A stretch of 64,000 bases of DNA from Candidatus Pacearchaeota archaeon (GTDB taxonomy: Archaea; Nanobdellota; Nanobdellia; UBA10117; JABICX01): NCBI GenBank assembly GCA_017608025.1, contig JAFCGM010000005.1, positions 1-64,000 on the forward strand, given 5' to 3'. Below, in pieces: positions 18,185-63,450 of the stretch; positions within the stretch are counted from its first letter, which is position 1, and the number at the start of each line of letters is the position of its first letter. The notes beneath the pieces are model-generated. The model was given only the letters and a program-made list of their open reading frames with translations. It did no database searches and was not told the origin of the DNA. The position numbers were made by a program, and so were the translations under genes.

Positions 18185-18330
18185 GCGTTCGTAGCTCAGT
18201 CTGGTAGAGCGATGGTCTTGTAATGAATTCCTTTCAAAAAGGTCTTCACCCTAAGTCTGGCGGAAAACCGATGATTCTGAAAGGAAAACTGGAAAACCAT
18301 AGGTCGAGGGTTCGATTCCCTCCGAGCGCT
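18185..18330 (+). tRNA. tRNA-Thr(TGT) with ~72-nt intron (18223-18294)
   Basis: Acceptor GCGTTCG/CGAGCGC, ASL ATGGT-CTTGTA^A-ACCAT, T arm GAGGGTTCGATTCCCTC. Confidence 0.9.
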
Positions 18331-21495: not shown

Positions 21496-21570
21496 GGGCC
21501 TGTGATCTAGTCCGGTTATGATGTCGCCCTTACAAGGCGAATGTCGGCGGTTCAAATCCGCCCAGGCCCA
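21496..21570 (+). tRNA. tRNA-Val(TAC)
   Basis: Acceptor GGGCCTG/CAGGCCC, ASL TCGCC-CTTACAA-GGCGA. Confidence 0.95.
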
Positions 21571-21652
21571 TTGGTTCAAAAAATGCTCAGACGGAAACTA
21601 AATAGGTTTTCTTTTGGAAACTTACCTTTTCTTTTTTGAAAAGAAAAGGGAG

Positions 21653-21669
21653 ATCCGCCCAGGCCCATT
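21653..21669 (+). repeat. Displaced copy of tRNA-Val 3' end (atccgcccaggcccatt)
   Basis: Identical to 21556-21572; preceded by hairpin CCTTTTCTTTTttGAAAAGAAAAGG. Confidence 0.9.
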
Positions 21670-25525: not shown

Positions 25526-25623
25526 GGGCGGGTAGCACAGTCTGGCAGTGCGTTTGCTTCGCAATAACTTTAACAGAAAAACGAAAAAGCAAAAGGTCCT
25601 GAGTTCAAATCTCAGCCCGTCCA
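25526..25623 (+). tRNA. tRNA-Ala(CGC) with 24-nt intron (25564-25587)
   Basis: G3:U70 wobble acceptor GGGCGGG/CCCGTCC; ASL TTTGC-TTCGCA^A-GCAAA. Confidence 0.9.
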
Positions 25624-26036: not shown

Positions 26037-26111
26037 GGGTCCGTAGCTCAGTCTGGCTAGAGCACTTGGCTCTTAACCAAGGGGTCGCGGGTTCAAATCC
26101 CGTCGGACTCG
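26037..26111 (+). tRNA. tRNA-Lys(CTT)
   Basis: Acceptor GGGTCCG/CGGACTC, ASL CTTGG-CTCTTAA-CCAAG. Confidence 0.94.
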
Positions 26112-26210
26112 CTTGAACCTTTCTCTTGTAAGAGAAATGTTCTCGAAAGAGAACGTATTATTTTTTCTTTGGGCAACTTACACTTTCTTTTTTCTAAAAA
26201 GAAAGGGCAG

Positions 26211-26232
26211 AATCCCGTCGGACTCGCTTGAA
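26211..26232 (+). repeat. Displaced copy of tRNA-Lys 3' end plus flank (aatcccgtcggactcgcttgaa)
   Basis: 22-nt identity to 26096-26117; preceded by hairpin ACTTTCTTTTTtctAAAAAGAAAGGG. Confidence 0.93.
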
Positions 26233-41532: not shown

Positions 41533-41555
41533 GGCCTTATTATATTGTTCCCAGC
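41533..41555 (-). repeat. Displaced copy of the rad50 3' end (gctgggaacaatataataaggc on the minus strand)
   Basis: 22-nt identity to 41623-41644; preceded (minus strand) by hairpin GAAATCACTTTTTAAAGGGATTTC. Confidence 0.9.
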
Positions 41556-41617
41556 AGAAATCCCTTTAAAAAGTGATTTCATTCCCAAAGAAAGCTTCAG
41601 AAAATCACTATTAAAAA

Positions 41618-43894
41618 CTACAGCCTTATTATATTGTTCCCAGCTTCAGCTAGCCTTTCGTCATGAGTTACAACAAAAACCTGCTCAATTATGTCTGAAA
41701 GCCGCGTTTTTATTATTTCAACAAGAGTTTCAACAGCTTTGTCATCAAGATTGTGAGTTGGCTCGTCAAGAATAAGGAGCCCCAGATTTGGCGCCAAAAC
41801 TCTTGAAAAAGCAATTCTTACTGCAAGAGCTGCAAGCATTTTCTCTCCTCCAGATGCATAGCCAGAAACTTTTAGCCAGTCACCATCCAGATTTTTCATT
41901 TGCAGTATGTAGTCATTCTCGTCAACAAAAAGTCTTACACTCTGCCATTTTTCATAAGGATAAAGCTGACTCCATATTGAATCCATCATTTCATTTACAG
42001 TAAGAATAAGCTCATCTCTTAGTGACTTCTGAGTCTCGCTTAATGCCACCCTAAATTCTTCCAGAAACTTTGTTTGCCTTTCAAGAGCCTTTATTTCACC
42101 AAGATATTTTTCATTTTGCGAAAGCTCCCGTTCAAGGTTTGAAATTCTTTTTTCCTTTTCAGAAATAAGATTTTCAAAACCCTCAAGCCGCGTTTTTGCT
42201 TCCTGGATTTCATTTGCTGTTTTTTCTTTTTCCCGTTCAGCAGCAGCAAGGTTTGAGAGAATGTCGTTCTTTTCCCTTAAAATTTCCTCAAGCTCCTGAA
42301 GATTTTTATTTACTTCAATTTCCCGGTCTTTTAATTCAAAAAGCCGGATTTTTTCAATAAGGTATTCTCTTTTTCCATTAAGAGTCTCAATCTCCTGCTT
42401 CAAATCCTGTCTTTTTTTAGCAGTACTTTCAAATTCTGACTTTAAGGAGTTTTTCTTTGAAATTATTTCTTCTATTTTTAAGTGAATTTTCATTAATTCG
42501 TCTTTATAGAATTCTTCTTTTGAAATGTCTTCAAGTCCTTCGCGATTCTCTTTGAAGATTTTTTCAAGCATTTCCTCTCTTTTCTCAAGCTGTGAAAGTT
42601 CGTCTTTTATCTGCGATTGTTGCTGAAGATTTTCAGAAATTGCTCTTTTCTTCTCCGAAATCAGCTCGTTTTTTGTCATTTCTGAAAGCTCTCGACTGCA
42701 TGTAGGGCACAAGCTGTCTGCTTTTTCAAGCTCAACCAAATGGTTTTTTTCCTCAGAAATTTTGACTGAAAGAGAATTGAATTGCTTTTCAATTTCCTTT
42801 CTTCTTGCTTTTGTCTCCTCAAGCTCTGCATTCAAGTCTTTGATATTATATTCAAGAATTTTTTCTTTTAATTCTTTGATATTATCCATTTTTTCAGCGA
42901 GGTCTTTTTTCTTGCTTTCTAATTCAATCTGCTCCCGTTCAATTTCCAGAAGCTGTTGGTTTTTGGATTCTTTTTCAATTTCAAGACTTTCTATGAGTTT
43001 GTTTTTTTCAGGAATGCTTTCCTTGACTTTGTTTAGTTCTTTAAGAAATTCTTCTTTACTTTTGTCAAAAGAAGCTCCTGCAAGCTTTTCAGAAATTCTT
43101 CCAAGCTCCTCTTCCAAAAGTTCCTTTCTTTCAGATTTTTTCTGAACAAAATCTGCTTTTTCGCGAAGCCTTGAATGGCTTTTTAATATCATTTTTTCCC
43201 TTTCTTTTAGTTTTTCAAGGCCAGACTTCAAAGACACCTCTTGCGATTTTATTGCTTCTTTTTCTTTTATAAGTTCATCATGCTCTTTTTTTATTTCTTC
43301 AATATTTAGCTCAGAAACAATTTTCTCAAACTCTGCTTTTCTCTTCAAAAGCTGGTTTCTCAGCTTTATGCAGTTATTTCTAGCTTTGTCAAACTTGTCA
43401 AGCCCCATTAATTCATCTGTTTTTTCTTTTCTTTCTTTTGGCGAATATTTCACAATTGCGTCAATATTATTTTGAACGCAATAAGCTGTTCTAAAAAAAA
43501 TCTCGTCATTTGCTTTGAGAAAGTTCTCAACAAACAAATTCGCACTGGTTGGATTGGGTCCAGCTATAAGTTTGCCTTCACTGGTTCTTGCAACTGCTTC
43601 ATTTGTGCCTTTTTCATTTATCTTTCTTTGGATTATGTATTTTTCTTTTCCAGAGGAAATTTTAATTTTTGCTTCAGCAAAGCTCGCACCTGAATTTCGT
43701 GTTATGATTTCCTGTTGAGTTACATCTCTTTTTTTCAGCTCCATAAATGTTCCGAAAAGGGAAAAGCTGATTGCCTGAAGAATTGAGCTTTTTCCAGAGC
43801 CCATGTTTCCCACAAGGACATTGATTCCAGGCGAAAAAGTGAAATCCTTTTCACTATGAATTTTCCAGTTCTTCAGATAAAGAGAGTTAATCAT
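41618..43894 (-). CDS. rad50: DNA double-strand break repair ATPase Rad50
   Basis: NMGSGKSSILQAI, zinc hook SLCPTCSREL, SGGEKMLAALAVRIAF, LILDEPTHNLD. Confidence 0.95.
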   Translation of the reverse strand: MINSLYLKNWKIHSEKDFTFSPGINVLVGNMGSGKSSILQAISFSLFGTFMELKKRDVTQQEIITRNSGASFAEAKIKISSGKEKYIIQRKINEKGTNEAVARTSEGKLIAGPNPTSANLFVENFLKANDEIFFRTAYCVQNNIDAIVKYSPKERKEKTDELMGLDKFDKARNNCIKLRNQLLKRKAEFEKIVSELNIEEIKKEHDELIKEKEAIKSQEVSLKSGLEKLKEREKMILKSHSRLREKADFVQKKSERKELLEEELGRISEKLAGASFDKSKEEFLKELNKVKESIPEKNKLIESLEIEKESKNQQLLEIEREQIELESKKKDLAEKMDNIKELKEKILEYNIKDLNAELEETKARRKEIEKQFNSLSVKISEEKNHLVELEKADSLCPTCSRELSEMTKNELISEKKRAISENLQQQSQIKDELSQLEKREEMLEKIFKENREGLEDISKEEFYKDELMKIHLKIEEIISKKNSLKSEFESTAKKRQDLKQEIETLNGKREYLIEKIRLFELKDREIEVNKNLQELEEILREKNDILSNLAAAEREKEKTANEIQEAKTRLEGFENLISEKEKRISNLERELSQNEKYLGEIKALERQTKFLEEFRVALSETQKSLRDELILTVNEMMDSIWSQLYPYEKWQSVRLFVDENDYILQMKNLDGDWLKVSGYASGGEKMLAALAVRIAFSRVLAPNLGLLILDEPTHNLDDKAVETLVEIIKTRLSDIIEQVFVVTHDERLAEAGNNIIRL

Positions 43895-47670: not shown

Positions 47671-49548
47671 ATGAGTATCTTAGACAAAATTCTAGAGAAA
47701 TTACCAAGAGAGACGCAAATATCCAGCACGAGCTATGAAGGCGCAAACATTATTCTCTACACAAAAAGCAGGAAATTTTTTCTAAATAGCGGAGACATAA
47801 TCCGGCAGCTTGTTGATGAATTCAAAAAAAGAATTGAGCTTCGTGCAGATGCAGCAATACGAAAGTCAGAAGAGGATTCTGAAAAAATTCTCAAAAAACT
47901 ATTTCCAAAAGATGCTGAAGTCACAAATATTGTATTCCTGCCTTCGCAATCCCAAGTAATAGTTGAAGCGAAAAATCCTGGAAGAGCAATTGGAAAAGAT
48001 GGCGAGATATTAAAGGAAATCAAGGAAAAAACATCATGGACACCTTTTATCAAAAGAGAGTCAGTTGTTACTTCAAACATAACAAATAACATTCGCAAGG
48101 TTCTTTATGAGGACAATGCAGAAAGACAGCGTTTCTTAAATAATGTTGGAAAGCGAATTTATGAAATAAAAAAAGCAACTTCTTCTGAAAAATGGGTCCG
48201 ACTTTCAGTTCTTGGCGGAGGTCGTCAAGTAGGACGTTCATGCTTCTTGCTGCAGACACCAGAATCAAAGGTTTTGATTGACTGCGGAATAAATCCTGCA
48301 GCATCAAATTCAGGAGAATTTCCATATCTCACCGCACCAGAGTTAAATCTTCAAGACCTTGATGCTGTAATTGTTTCTCACGCTCATTTGGACCACTCAG
48401 GCTTTGTGCCTTACCTTTTCAAATACGGATACAAAGGTCCGGTTTACTGCACAGAACCAACTCGAGACATTTCATCTCTTTCGCAGCTTGACTATATTCA
48501 AGTAAGCCATGCCCAGACAAAAAAAGCCCCGTATTCCAGCACAGACATAAAAGAGGCAGTAAAGCATACAATTGTTTTGGATTACAATGAAGTGACAGAT
48601 ATAACTCCTGATGTTCGAATTACGCTTTACAATGCAGGCCACATTCTTGGCTCTTCTCTTGTCCACCTTCATATTGGCGAAGGTTGGCACAACATTCTCT
48701 ATACAGGAGACTTCAAGACAAAGGAAACTCAATTGCTTAATCCAGGGCATTCTGAATTTCCTCGCGTTGAAACTTTAATAACAGAAAGCACCTATGGAAA
48801 GCCGGACGACTTAATGGCTCCGCGCAAGGAATCAGAAAACGAGCTTGCAGAGTTTGTAAAGTCAACAATAAAAAGAAAAGGAAAAGTTATTATTCCAGTA
48901 CTTGGAGTTGGCCGTGCGCAAGAAGTTATGATAATTCTTGAAGAAATTTTTAGGAAAAGCAAAATAAATGTTCCAATTTACATTGACGGAATGGTTTGGG
49001 ACATGACTGCAATTCACAATGCCTATCCAGAATATCTAAATAATTCTATTCGCGAGAAAATCTTTTACAAAGACAGAAACCCTTTTCTTGCAGGGAACTT
49101 CAAAAGAGTCGGCTCAGCAAAGGAAAGAAAGCAGGTTATTGATGGAGGCTCTTGCGTTATTTTGGCAACATCGGGTATGCTTGTTGGAGGTCCGTCAGTT
49201 GAATATTTGAAAAAATTAGGTTCAGACAAGAAAAACTCCTTGGTTTTTGTTTCCTATCAGGCAGAAGGCTCTTTGGGAAATAACATTCAGAGAGGAGATA
49301 CATCATTTTCAGAAGACGGCGAAACCTATGAAGTTAATCTTGACATTAACACTGTTCCTGGATTATCAGGACATTCTGATAGAGAAGAGCTGTTAACTTA
49401 TGTTCGAAAAATGACTCCAAGGCCGAGAAGAATTATCGTAGTTCATGGAGACAACCAGTCATGCCTAAACCTTGCTTCAGCTTTCCACAAGGAATTTCAC
49501 ATAGAGACTACAGCACCGAGAAATCTGGATGTTCTTCGGTTACGTTAG
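47671..49548 (+). CDS. aCPSF1-type KH / metallo-beta-lactamase / beta-CASP ribonuclease
   Basis: KH motif EAKNPGRAIGKDGEILKEI, SHAHLDHSGFVPYL, LYTGDFK, SGHSDREEL. Confidence 0.95.
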   Translation: MSILDKILEKLPRETQISSTSYEGANIILYTKSRKFFLNSGDIIRQLVDEFKKRIELRADAAIRKSEEDSEKILKKLFPKDAEVTNIVFLPSQSQVIVEAKNPGRAIGKDGEILKEIKEKTSWTPFIKRESVVTSNITNNIRKVLYEDNAERQRFLNNVGKRIYEIKKATSSEKWVRLSVLGGGRQVGRSCFLLQTPESKVLIDCGINPAASNSGEFPYLTAPELNLQDLDAVIVSHAHLDHSGFVPYLFKYGYKGPVYCTEPTRDISSLSQLDYIQVSHAQTKKAPYSSTDIKEAVKHTIVLDYNEVTDITPDVRITLYNAGHILGSSLVHLHIGEGWHNILYTGDFKTKETQLLNPGHSEFPRVETLITESTYGKPDDLMAPRKESENELAEFVKSTIKRKGKVIIPVLGVGRAQEVMIILEEIFRKSKINVPIYIDGMVWDMTAIHNAYPEYLNNSIREKIFYKDRNPFLAGNFKRVGSAKERKQVIDGGSCVILATSGMLVGGPSVEYLKKLGSDKKNSLVFVSYQAEGSLGNNIQRGDTSFSEDGETYEVNLDINTVPGLSGHSDREELLTYVRKMTPRPRRIIVVHGDNQSCLNLASAFHKEFHIETTAPRNLDVLRLR

Positions 49549-49587
49549 TTTATTATTTTCCGCCGCCGCTTTTTTGAAAAGGGGCGT

Positions 49588-49632
49588 GAGGCCACTGCTC
49601 CAAGAAATCTGGATGTGTTGAGGTTGAGATGA
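49588..49632 (+). repeat. Displaced, codon-divergent second copy of the aCPSF1 3' end (EATAPRNLDVLRLR*)
   Basis: GAGGCCACTGCTCCAAGAAATCTGGATGTGTTGAGGTTGAGATGA vs 49504-49548; 13 of 14 residues identical, eight codons synonymously different. Confidence 0.92.
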
Positions 49633-49888
49633 AAATAGAAAAGAAATACTGGCCAGAATATTTTCAGAAAATTCTTGACAGAGAGAAAACATTTGATTTA
49701 AGATTAGTTGATTTTGATTGTAAAAAGGAGATATTTTAGTTCTCCGAGAATGGAATCCTAAAACCAAAGAATACGCTGGTCGCACAATTGAAAAAGAAAT
49801 AATCTGCATTATTAAAACAAAAGAAGTGCCTTTTTGGTCAAAAGAGGAGATTGAGAAATCTGGCTTTCAAGTAATTGGATTTAAATAG
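49629..49888 (+). pseudogene. ASCH/DUF3850-like protein, disrupted by an apparent single-nucleotide frameshift
   Basis: MKIEKKYWPEYFQKILDREKTFDLRLVDFDCKK(frameshift)GDILVLREWNPKTKEYAGRTIEKEIICIIKTKEVPFWSKEEIEKSGFQVIGFK. Confidence 0.65.
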
Positions 49889-55393: not shown

Positions 55394-56671
55394 ATGAAAA
55401 CAACCTTTATTCGAGACATTTTGAAAAAATCCAAGGCAGGGAAAACAGTTGAAGTCTGCGGATGGGTTTACAGAAAACGGGAAATGAAAGACAAGATATT
55501 TCTTGTAATTAGGGATTCAACAGATATTATGCAGGTAATTGTTACAGACAAGTCAGATGCATGGAAATCTGCACAGAAAGTTACAATAGAGTCTTCAGTA
55601 ATAATTTCTGGAACTTTGAAGCAAGACTTTAGAGCACCCACTGGCTATGAACTGAAAGCAGAAAAACTGGAAATAGTAGATCTTGCAGAAAGATTCCCAA
55701 TTTCAAAAGATCTTTCAACAGAATTTTTAATGGATGTCCGCCATCTTGCTTTAAGAGGAATTAAGCAGGCAGCAATTATCAAGCTTAGGTCCCAAATGTT
55801 TATGGCATTTCATGAGTATTTTCGAAAAAACAAGTTCATTGAAGCAGAAGCCCCTTCATTCATGTCTCAAGGTTCAGAAGGGGGCTCAGAAGTTTTTCAG
55901 GTAAAATATTTTGGAAAAAAAGCATTCCTAACTCAGTCATGGCAGTTTTATGCAGAGAACATGATTCATGCTTTTGAAAATGTTTATGCTCTTGCTCCTT
56001 CTTTTCGCGCAGAAAAATCCTCAACAAACCGCCACTTAACAGAATACTGGCACCTTGAAGTTGAGTCTGCCTGGGCAAACCTTAACGACATAATCAACCT
56101 TACAGAAGGATGCATATCTGCTGTGATTGACAAACTGCTAAGTGAAAATTCACGAGAGCTGGAGATTGTTGGAGTTGACAAAAAATGGCTTAATTCACTT
56201 AAGCCACCATACAAGAAAATAACATATTCAAAAGCAGTAAAAGAATTGCAGAAAAAAGGATTCAAAATCAAAGAAGGGCAAGATTTTGGAGCTCCGCATG
56301 AAAAGGAATTGGCAAAAAACGGCCCGATTTTTGTAACCCATTATCCAATGTCAATTCTGAAGTTTTACCATGGAGAAGACCCAAAAAATCCAGGCTATGG
56401 AACAAACTTTAATCTTCTTTTTCCTGAAGTCGGAGAAACAGTTGACGGCTCCCAAAGAGAGCCAGAACTGGAAAAAATAAAACAGCGCCTCAAAAAAGCG
56501 AAAATAAACCTTGGAAAATCTGACTGGTATCTGGATTCACGGAGATATGGTTCAGTGCCACATGCAGGCTTCGGCCTTGGAACAGAGCGCCTTTTGCAGG
56601 CTCTTTTGAAACTCGACCACATCCGAGACATTTTGCCATTCCCTAGGTTTATGAACCGAATAAGACCATAA
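55394..56671 (+). CDS. asnS: Asparaginyl-tRNA synthetase
   Basis: Class II motifs SFRAEKSSTNRHLTEYWHLEVE and GFGLGTERLLQALL. Confidence 0.92.
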   Translation: MKTTFIRDILKKSKAGKTVEVCGWVYRKREMKDKIFLVIRDSTDIMQVIVTDKSDAWKSAQKVTIESSVIISGTLKQDFRAPTGYELKAEKLEIVDLAERFPISKDLSTEFLMDVRHLALRGIKQAAIIKLRSQMFMAFHEYFRKNKFIEAEAPSFMSQGSEGGSEVFQVKYFGKKAFLTQSWQFYAENMIHAFENVYALAPSFRAEKSSTNRHLTEYWHLEVESAWANLNDIINLTEGCISAVIDKLLSENSRELEIVGVDKKWLNSLKPPYKKITYSKAVKELQKKGFKIKEGQDFGAPHEKELAKNGPIFVTHYPMSILKFYHGEDPKNPGYGTNFNLLFPEVGETVDGSQREPELEKIKQRLKKAKINLGKSDWYLDSRRYGSVPHAGFGLGTERLLQALLKLDHIRDILPFPRFMNRIRP

Positions 56672-56810
56672 AATATTGTTCTAATCTCTTTGAGATTGTT
56701 CTTTTGGCAACTTACCTTTTCTTTTGAAGAAAAGGCAGGGGTTTTATGAACCGAATAAGACCATAAAATATTGTTCTAATCTCTTTGAGATTGTTCTTTT
56801 GGCAACTTAC
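56648..56810 (+). repeat. Tandem duplication of the asnS 3' end: two identical 68-bp copies (56648-56715, 56743-56810), period 95
   Basis: tttatgaaccgaataagaccataaaatattg...ttttggcaacttac repeated; separator carries hairpin CTTTTCTTTTgaAGAAAAGG. Confidence 0.95.
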
Positions 56811-58122: not shown

Positions 58123-58728
58123 ATGGCTAAAATAAAATTAATCATCTTTGACATTTGGAATACGCTTATGTACACACATGAAAATAAATTAGATGTTATG
58201 CTTGAGCTTTTAGGTATTGATGAAGCAACATTCAGAGATGGAATAAAGCGAATGTGTCTTTCTAAAATGTCTATTGAAGATCTTTTCTCAGAATTTACAA
58301 CAGATAAAAAGAAACTTAAAACTGCTGTTGATTTATGGATGAATGATAAAGTTACTATTTACAAGGATGTTATTCCTACGCTGAATGTATTATATGGGAA
58401 AATTAAGATGGCAATTCTTTCTAACTCTTCAACATACATAAGAGAATTTTTGAAGGAAAAAAGGATTTCTGCGTATTTTGATAAGATTTATTTGTCTGCA
58501 GAATACGGACTTCTTAAGCCAGATCCAAGGCTTTTTAATATAATTCTTAAAGATTTTAATTTAAAACCAGAAGAAGTAGCAATGGTCGGCGACAAGGAAA
58601 GCAAAGACATCGCCCCAGCCAAGCAAAAGGGAATTCTCGGAATTTTGATTGACAGAAAAAACTCAAAAGAGAAAATCCTTGCTGACTACAAAATTCAGAA
58701 TTTGAGAGAAATAGAAAAGATAATTTAG
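58123..58728 (+). CDS. HAD-superfamily hydrolase
   Basis: IIFDIWNTLMYT, AILSNSS, KPDPRLFNIIL, MVGDKESKDI. Confidence 0.9.
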   Translation: MAKIKLIIFDIWNTLMYTHENKLDVMLELLGIDEATFRDGIKRMCLSKMSIEDLFSEFTTDKKKLKTAVDLWMNDKVTIYKDVIPTLNVLYGKIKMAILSNSSTYIREFLKEKRISAYFDKIYLSAEYGLLKPDPRLFNIILKDFNLKPEEVAMVGDKESKDIAPAKQKGILGILIDRKNSKEKILADYKIQNLREIEKII

Positions 58729-58829
58729 TTTTCTTTTGGCAACTTGGGTTTTCTTTTTCTAAAAGAAAAGCCAGCTGACTACAAAATTCAGAATTTGAGA
58801 GAAATAGAAAAGATAATTTAGTTTTCTTT
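58681..58829 (+). repeat. Tandem duplication of the HAD gene 3' end: two identical ~55-bp copies, period 93
   Basis: gctgactacaaaattcagaatttgagagaaatagaaaagataatttagttttcttt at 58681 and 58774; separator has hairpin TTTTCTTTTtctAAAAGAAAA. Confidence 0.95.
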
Positions 58830-62972: not shown

Positions 62973-63056
62973 GCTAGGGTACCCAAGCGGTCAAAGGGGC
63001 AGGACTTAAGATCCTGTGGCTTAGTGCCTTCCGGGGTTCGAATCCTCGCCCTAGCA
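62973..63056 (+). tRNA. tRNA-Leu(TAA)
   Basis: Acceptor GCTAGGG/CCCTAGC, ASL CAGGA-CTTAAGA-TCCTG, long variable arm. Confidence 0.94.
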
Positions 63057-63092
63057 CTGCCCTTTCTTTCCCAAAGAAAGTGCAAGTTGCCC

Positions 63093-63257
63093 AAAGAAAA
63101 ACAACAATAGTTCTTTGCAAACACCAAAGAAAATGCTTCGGTCATAATAACCTATTTATTCGAAAGAAAAACAACAATAGTTCTTTGCAAACTTATTATT
63201 TTTGATGAAACTTTTTCTAAAAGTTTCTTTTTGATGAAACTTTTTCTAAAAGTTTCT
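63093..63257 (+). repeat. Nested repeats downstream of tRNA-Leu: 30-bp aaagaaaaacaacaatagttctttgcaaac x2 and tandem tttgatgaaactttttctaaaagtttct x2
   Basis: Direct reading at 63093/63163 and 63201/~63230. Confidence 0.9.
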
Positions 63258-63298
63258 GGGGGATGCAAACACTTTTCTAAAGGGTTTGCAGGGGTTAA

Positions 63299-63450
63299 GA
63301 ATCCTCGCCCTAGCACTTTCTCTTTTAGAAAAAGAGAACCTGCACTAAGAGAAAACTAATCTTTAAAAAAAGATGCATCAAAAATGTTTCGCTGCCGCTT
63401 AACATACTTTTCTTTTTTGAAAAGAAAATATCATCGCCCTAGCACTGCCT
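63299..63450 (+). repeat. Two displaced copies of the tRNA-Leu 3' end (63299-63316 gaatcctcgccctagcac; 63435-63450 tcgccctagcactgcc)
   Basis: Identical to 63040-63057 and 63046-63061; each preceded by a family hairpin. Confidence 0.92.

Follow-up and report, generated by a model that had tools for sequence, protein, structure and literature searches.

The two ends of the aCPSF1 gene

Why should a conserved archaeal gene carry its last codons twice, in two different spellings, on either side of a few dozen base pairs? The question was raised by the gene for aCPSF1 (FttA), the termination nuclease of archaea, in a stretch of 64,000 nucleotides (contig JAFCGM010000005.1, positions 1 to 64,000; hereafter the window) from a Candidatus Pacearchaeota archaeon. 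Its genome (G000) comprises 700,509 bp on 34 contigs, and its order is represented by 18 genomes; the related entries in public databases go under Woesearchaeota, Pacearchaeota, Nanoarchaeota or DPANN. The reading that we tentatively favour, at a little under an even chance, is that a hairpin element without an open reading frame (ORF) entered aCPSF1 within its final ~14 codons and brought a replacement end with it. The locus is arranged as follows.

47671..49548, + strand: aCPSF1/FttA, 625 amino acids (KH, MBL, beta-CASP, RMMBL; Pfam PF17214, PF10996, PF07521)
49504..49548, + strand: tail in use, ETTAPRNLDVLRLR*, probably the recoded newcomer (polarity by analogy with EF-2 of the related genome G009)
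49519..49532 and 49603-49616, + strand: identical core of 14 bp, AGAAATCTGGATGT, common to both tails
49549..49587, + strand: spacer of 39 bp with a hairpin at ~49560-49591 (apex CTTTTTTGAAAAG, fold -13.2 kcal/mol, z -1.7)
49588..49632, + strand: second tail, now displaced, EATAPRNLDVLRLR*, probably what was once the native gene end
49629..49888, + strand: DUF3850/ASCH ORF, frameshifted near 49735, whose start overlaps the displaced stop (ATGA)

A sequence-only reading of the window had proposed two tails 84 bp apart that differ by eight synonymous codons and one residue. We located both in the same frame, the used one stopping with TAG at 49548 and the second with TGA at 49632, and the codon comparison of the 14 duplicated codons gave 8 synonymous differences, 1 non-synonymous difference and the changed stop. 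When all ORF ends of the 700-kb genome were scanned, this pair scored 59, against a best antisense score of 31 (one hit) and a reversed-peptide peak of 37, which excludes chance.

The same reading had taken the overlap of the downstream TGA with the next ATG as the mark of a native operon. The overlap with the ATG at 49629 is there, but the gene it opens does not behave as a native partner: the DUF3850/ASCH ORF matches PF12961 (E=1.6e-14) when read across its frameshift, it is not a conserved neighbour of aCPSF1, and it is followed by S3Ae on the opposite strand, whereas S3Ae comes directly after aCPSF1 in several relatives (G002, G013, L037). The ATGA alone is thus no proof of a native operon. 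Small extra genes also occupy the gap between aCPSF1 and S3Ae elsewhere (172 amino acids in L033, 84 in L036 and G011, 215 and 135 in G016), and since they differ among relatives, this gap is a hot spot for the insertion of small genes.

Recurrence at aCPSF1 across the order

A second, recoded aCPSF1 tail was found 3' of the stop codon in six genomes, that of the window and five others of the order, with these spacers between the tails:

Window genome, G000: 39 bp
SI037S2_bin39 (L033): 38 bp
Meg22_46_Bin_225, G008 (L034): 117 bp
UBA10117, G004 (L036): 216 bp
NC_groundwater_169, G009 (L038): 78 bp
G017 (L011): 27 bp

The six spacers are unrelated to one another; those of the window and of L033 hold hairpins in the style of family f1, and that of G009 holds a different element. 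Within each pair the residues are lineage-specific, with DVLRLR in the window, ETLRLR in G017, and DAIRLR or EVVRLK in others. The six double tails are independent cases. A degenerate pattern for the aCPSF1 end was present in 81 of 383 genomes of the class and occurred in two copies only in G000, G004, G008 and G009, that is, in 4 of the 11 motif-bearing genomes within the order versus 0 of 70 outside it, which by our own arithmetic would arise by chance about 2 times in 10,000.

Extent in the genomes

We then asked how far the arrangement extends beyond aCPSF1. The last 12 residues of every ORF of the window genome were sought in the 800 bp 3' of that ORF, and 46 matches were obtained in the sense direction, 1 in antisense and 11 with reversed peptides. 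After inspection, about 30 genes have real duplicated tails, usually around a hairpin repeat, and these range from exact, young copies to fully recoded ones: a 177-amino-acid gene has three additional exact tails, and the end of the Obg-like GTPase gene differs by 9 synonymous and 0 other changes. Core genes seem to predominate among those affected; the Obg-like GTPase, an Ogg-type glycosylase and a HAD protein are named from profile hidden Markov models (HMMs), and others, RadA, aCPSF2, SecY, Trm5, Kae1 and RNase HII among them, from our reading of the proteins. In G009, of which 569 kb were read, duplicated ends occur at S28e, EF-2, an Lhr-type helicase, an AsnC/Lrp-type gene and others, and the S28e end is duplicated in G008 too. 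Outside the order, the tail scan covered 1.12 Mb of loci and gave 4 matches, none of them convincing (a single repetitive ORF accounts for three, and L050 holds the other).

Duplication is not confined to protein ends. Exact copies of 20-60 bp occur at gene ends, at four gene starts, at tRNA 3' ends (Val, Lys, Leu and one more) and in intergenic DNA; the window genome has 160 close direct repeats versus 0 in shuffled DNA, and insertion has recurred at one site.

These exact repeats bring in an alternative that uses no foreign DNA, namely that 20-60 bp were duplicated locally and directly as a hairpin inserted, and that the used copy was later recoded in place by synonymous changes. The gene-end cases would survive since the first copy restores the gene, and the recoding could be driven, for example, by the advantage of stopping recombination or re-cutting between the repeats. 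We regard it as unlikely overall, yet as the most serious competitor; it draws on the exact duplications at all four kinds of site, on the excess of close direct repeats with repeated insertions at one site, and on the lineage-specific residues present in both copies (DVLRLR in the window, ETLRLR in G017). Its difficulty lies in the recoded pairs.

Both copies derive from coding sequence

Over 19 tail pairs we counted 107 synonymous versus 17 non-synonymous codon differences, whereas 71% of random base changes would be non-synonymous; the pairs were chosen by peptide similarity, which biases the count against non-synonymous change. Individual pairs with ratios of 9:0, 8:0 and 7:0 (synonymous to non-synonymous) are unexpected if one copy drifted freely. 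The counts bear out the earlier proposal that the copies diverged while both were coding, and argue that both tails of the pairs stem from coding sequence and parted as such.

Recoding in place would require that selection push strongly for synonymous changes, and in the used copy alone. Between aCPSF1 copies, codons match at 28 of 72 positions, versus about 29 for independent choice (our own sum from the usage table); since the two figures agree, there is no sign of active avoidance of the other copy's codons beyond saturation. Long target duplication with later recoding fits the exact cases as well as copying of a tail plus hairpin does, and the recoded cases less well.

Every genome used here is a metagenome assembly, which would be the ground for suspecting an artefact of assembly or binning. 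We give this a negligible probability: the pattern is seen in independent assemblies from different projects, misassembly cannot give synonymous-only divergence, and one duplication with the same spacer is carried by two species.

Which copy is new

The sequence-only reading had considered the used end to be imported and the downstream one original. This was borne out in relatives for which a close comparison is available. G009 has a congener, G016, and across the aCPSF1 region the two are 86% identical in DNA (G011 is at ~80%). Between G009 and G016, the used tail of EF-2 has synonymous changes at 11 of 15 codons, the gene body at 22 of 75 (p=0.0024) and the downstream tail at 2 of 15 (plus 2 other changes). 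In G011 the native next gene comes after the displaced tail of the Lhr-type helicase, and in G017 and G008 the downstream aCPSF1 tail is directly followed by S3Ae, the neighbour of uninterrupted aCPSF1 genes. The AsnC/Lrp-type gene, whose duplication, spacer included, is common to G009 and G016 and so predates their split, likewise has a native downstream copy and a recoded copy in use. We take the used tail to be the newcomer and the recoding to stop at the limits of the duplication, at least where the cases are best resolved. The helicase, g117, g196 and AsnC/Lrp tails of G009 gave no significant recoding excess over the gene body.

At the window itself, the nearest aCPSF1 relatives are just 67-68% identical in DNA, so that this part of the earlier claim is not directly provable there; by analogy with the other cases, the used end is probably new and the downstream end native.

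The S28e gene of G009 is less clear. Its used tail differs synonymously from G016 at 12 of 16 codons versus 25 of 74 in the body (p=0.004), but 9 of 16 codons differ in the downstream tail as well, a mixed polarity, and the upstream tail is followed by a TAATGCC-like sequence that resembles the native start of L24e. Between the displaced tail and L24e lies a small ORF (MSEIIIDGLTEAAREV..., at ~6345 on the minus strand of contig C20, locus L202) with no Pfam match, which overlaps the displaced stop as ATGA, the same as DUF3850 in the window. The opposite polarity would follow if the downstream tail had arrived with a foreign gene (DUF3850 in the window, the small ORF beside S28e in G009) and the upstream tail were native. 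At each of these two loci an extra gene, missing from relatives, begins with an ATG that overlaps the displaced stop, and the L24e-like start after the upstream S28e tail fits as well. We nevertheless consider this improbable, given the EF-2 downstream tail that is nearly identical to that of the congener, the G011 helicase, and the position of S3Ae directly after the downstream aCPSF1 tail in G008 and G017.

The hairpin elements and the search for an enzyme

The inserts between duplicated ends are 27-240 bp long and consist of hairpins without an ORF. The spacer hairpin at aCPSF1 matches in style the interspersed hairpin repeats of the window genome, in which the apex motif TTTTTnnAAAAG has 172 copies versus 9 in the shuffled genome; TTTTTCTAAAAG has 10 copies in the window versus 0.3 expected. 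Family F1 (GGAAGACC..AAGGG..ATTCC) was found, among 143 genomes searched, in only three, those of family f1. The folding z-scores of the hairpins are modest (-0.5 to -2.6).

The element of G009 is a different one, of ~80-100 bp; it has one hairpin on the 5' side and, on the 3' side, a GC-rich one that ends in GCGGGTCCG or GCGGTTCGG. Its body (GGGTCAGGGTGAGCGTCC..GCGGGTCCG) abuts the displaced tail at aCPSF1 and at the helicase, and its 3' part does so at one gene more; further copies sit at gene starts and in a region resembling RNase P RNA (our own gene readings). In three proteins the element is apparently translated in frame as the N-terminal part (C4 ~3811, minus strand; C17 ~6429, minus; C26 ~2998, plus), and we read these as RadB/KaiC-like, undecaprenyl-diphosphate-synthase-like and clamp-loader-like.

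Several known movers were considered. For TnpB/IS605 elements, PF07282 (TnpB) and PF01797 (Y1 transposase) are missing from G000 and G009, as is the RAYT (Y1) transposase of the system formed by repetitive extragenic palindromes (REP) and their associated tyrosine transposase (RAYT). A casposon or a duplication made by Cas1 was rejected, as PF01867 is missing from all 18 genomes of the order while a control profile matched. Free-standing LAGLIDADG genes, which might represent an autonomous version, are present in several genomes of the order, none flanked by duplicated ends; several of them adjoin conserved genes (L247-L254, in G006 and G015). Phage-integrase family matches in the window genome sit on other contigs (C8, C24), and a viral carrier of the S28e tail was rejected, viral contigs having given 0 matches.

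The e14 prophage, an integrase-bearing element that supplies a recoded 3' end to icd of E. coli, had been offered as the likeness for the window. The resemblance lies in the recoded 3' end supplied by an element; as to the kind of element the comparison fails, since no prophage or integrase lies between the copies, just the 39-bp hairpin spacer. It could still be argued that we see the remnant of an e14-like site-specific integrative element, with its att site at the aCPSF1 3' end, that was later deleted. An identical core with recoded flanks on both sides, of 14 bp in the window and 32 bp in the S28e pair of G009, does resemble attL/attR, and the 3' ends of conserved genes and tRNAs are classic integration sites. 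We find this very unlikely, because no full-size element was found in the six aCPSF1 cases or at 300-6000 bp from gene ends in two genomes, and one genome offers about 30 different targets whose gaps are occupied by short hairpin repeats.

A proposed mechanism

In the reading that we favour, the incoming unit would be an allelic gene tail plus hairpin, which would enter either by being copied at a break or through recombination at the short identical core. Copying would begin within the tail of the homologous gene end on another chromosome and displace the native tail; at aCPSF1 the replacement, with the same amino acids, different codons and its own stop, would now be used, and the old tail would have been shifted 84 bp downstream, untranslated. 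A source in the same species would give exact copies, and one in a related species recoded copies. The spread would be homing-like, the carried tail keeping the essential gene working.

Several observations weigh against this reading, besides the mixed polarity and the L24e-like start at S28e. The surroundings of the tails yielded neither a nuclease nor an integrase nor any autonomous element, and no donor of the recoded tail at the window came to light; codon usage at the window fails to tell the native from the foreign tail; some elements of G009 stand at gene starts with no visible duplication; and exact tails, like the exact repeats between genes, at gene starts and at tRNA ends, are explicable by long target duplication alone.

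A bolder version would be a gene drive of natural origin that brings its own rescue. A trans-acting nuclease, perhaps guided by the sequence adjacent to the hairpin, would move the tiny element by cutting the ends of essential genes in cells free of the insert, and the element would copy itself in with a recoded end that preserves the gene and resists re-cutting. We hold this to be quite improbable; were the homing part true, it would be a natural precedent for recoded-rescue gene drives.

Comparison with known systems

The closest known parallel is the mobile-ORF gene hybrids of fungal mitochondria, and something very similar was previously known only from there. In four Glomus genes (atp6, atp9, cox2, nad3) the inserted C-terminals are 64-81% identical in DNA to a close relative and the displaced native ones 91-98%, with protein identities of these ends of 94-100%; atp6 of Allomyces is a further such hybrid, and a LAGLIDADG or GIY-YIG endonuclease ORF stands between both ends (PMC3630166). 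The archaeal loci likewise use a recoded in-frame end and have a native end displaced downstream (in EF-2 of G009, where it matches the congener, and probably at the window); unlike the mitochondrial hybrids, their inserts are hairpins of 27-240 bp with no endonuclease ORF, they are chromosomal, and they concern dozens of genes. Tremella mitochondrial introns duplicate host-gene fragments (PMC7315562), a similar exchange of a foreign gene fragment through a mobile element, which differs in being intron-based and kilobase-sized.

The hairpins share with REP/RAYT, with miniature inverted-repeat transposable elements (MITEs) and with Rickettsia palindromic elements their short, dispersed form, and some are apparently read in frame at gene starts of G009. 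They differ from REP/RAYT in the missing transposase; they have the MITE trait of a short dispersed non-coding repeat, their direct repeats are long and of no fixed length, and no parent transposase was identified. We know of no gene-end replacement described for any of these three groups. A hairpin scaffold followed by target sequence would look alike in IS605/TnpB RNA-guided elements, from which the lack of TnpB and Y1 sets the present ones apart. We found no description of such gene-end replacement in archaea in the open-licence literature.

If our reading is right, the ends of highly conserved prokaryotic chromosomal genes (aCPSF1, EF-2, S28e, Obg-like GTPase) can be swapped by elements too small for any enzyme, recurrently at the same genes and across one order of little-known archaea with tiny genomes. 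Gene trees and annotation would be affected, as gene ends in these archaea could be foreign, and the displaced ends would be fossils that record the former allele.

Other duplicated ends in the window

Further duplicated ends lie elsewhere in the window, where an Rfam scan gave tRNAs only.

58681-58736, + strand: end of a HAD gene (gene at 58728; Pfam HAD), 56 bp, exact and young, again at 58774-58829 with a 37-bp hairpin (58737-58773) between
56648..56810, + strand: end of an aspartyl-tRNA synthetase gene (name from ORF reading, not HMM), exact, again after 95 bp with a hairpin repeat
41534..41644, - strand: end of a Rad50-like gene (name from ORF reading), again 89 bp downstream
21556..21669, + strand: tRNA-Val 3' end, again after a hairpin
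26096..26232, + strand: tRNA-Lys 3' end, again after a hairpin
63040..63446, + strand: tRNA-Leu 3' end, with two displaced copies and several hairpins

Two apparently intron-containing tRNAs (18185-18330 and 25526-25623), detected by Rfam and not by ARAGORN, each have a duplicated 3' end downstream. At positions 1-95 the contig starts inside an array in which a 37-bp hairpin (TTTTTTCTTTTCCGCAGCCGCTTTTTCTAAAAGGGGC) is repeated in tandem, and since contig C8 starts in the same array, such arrays probably break the assembly.
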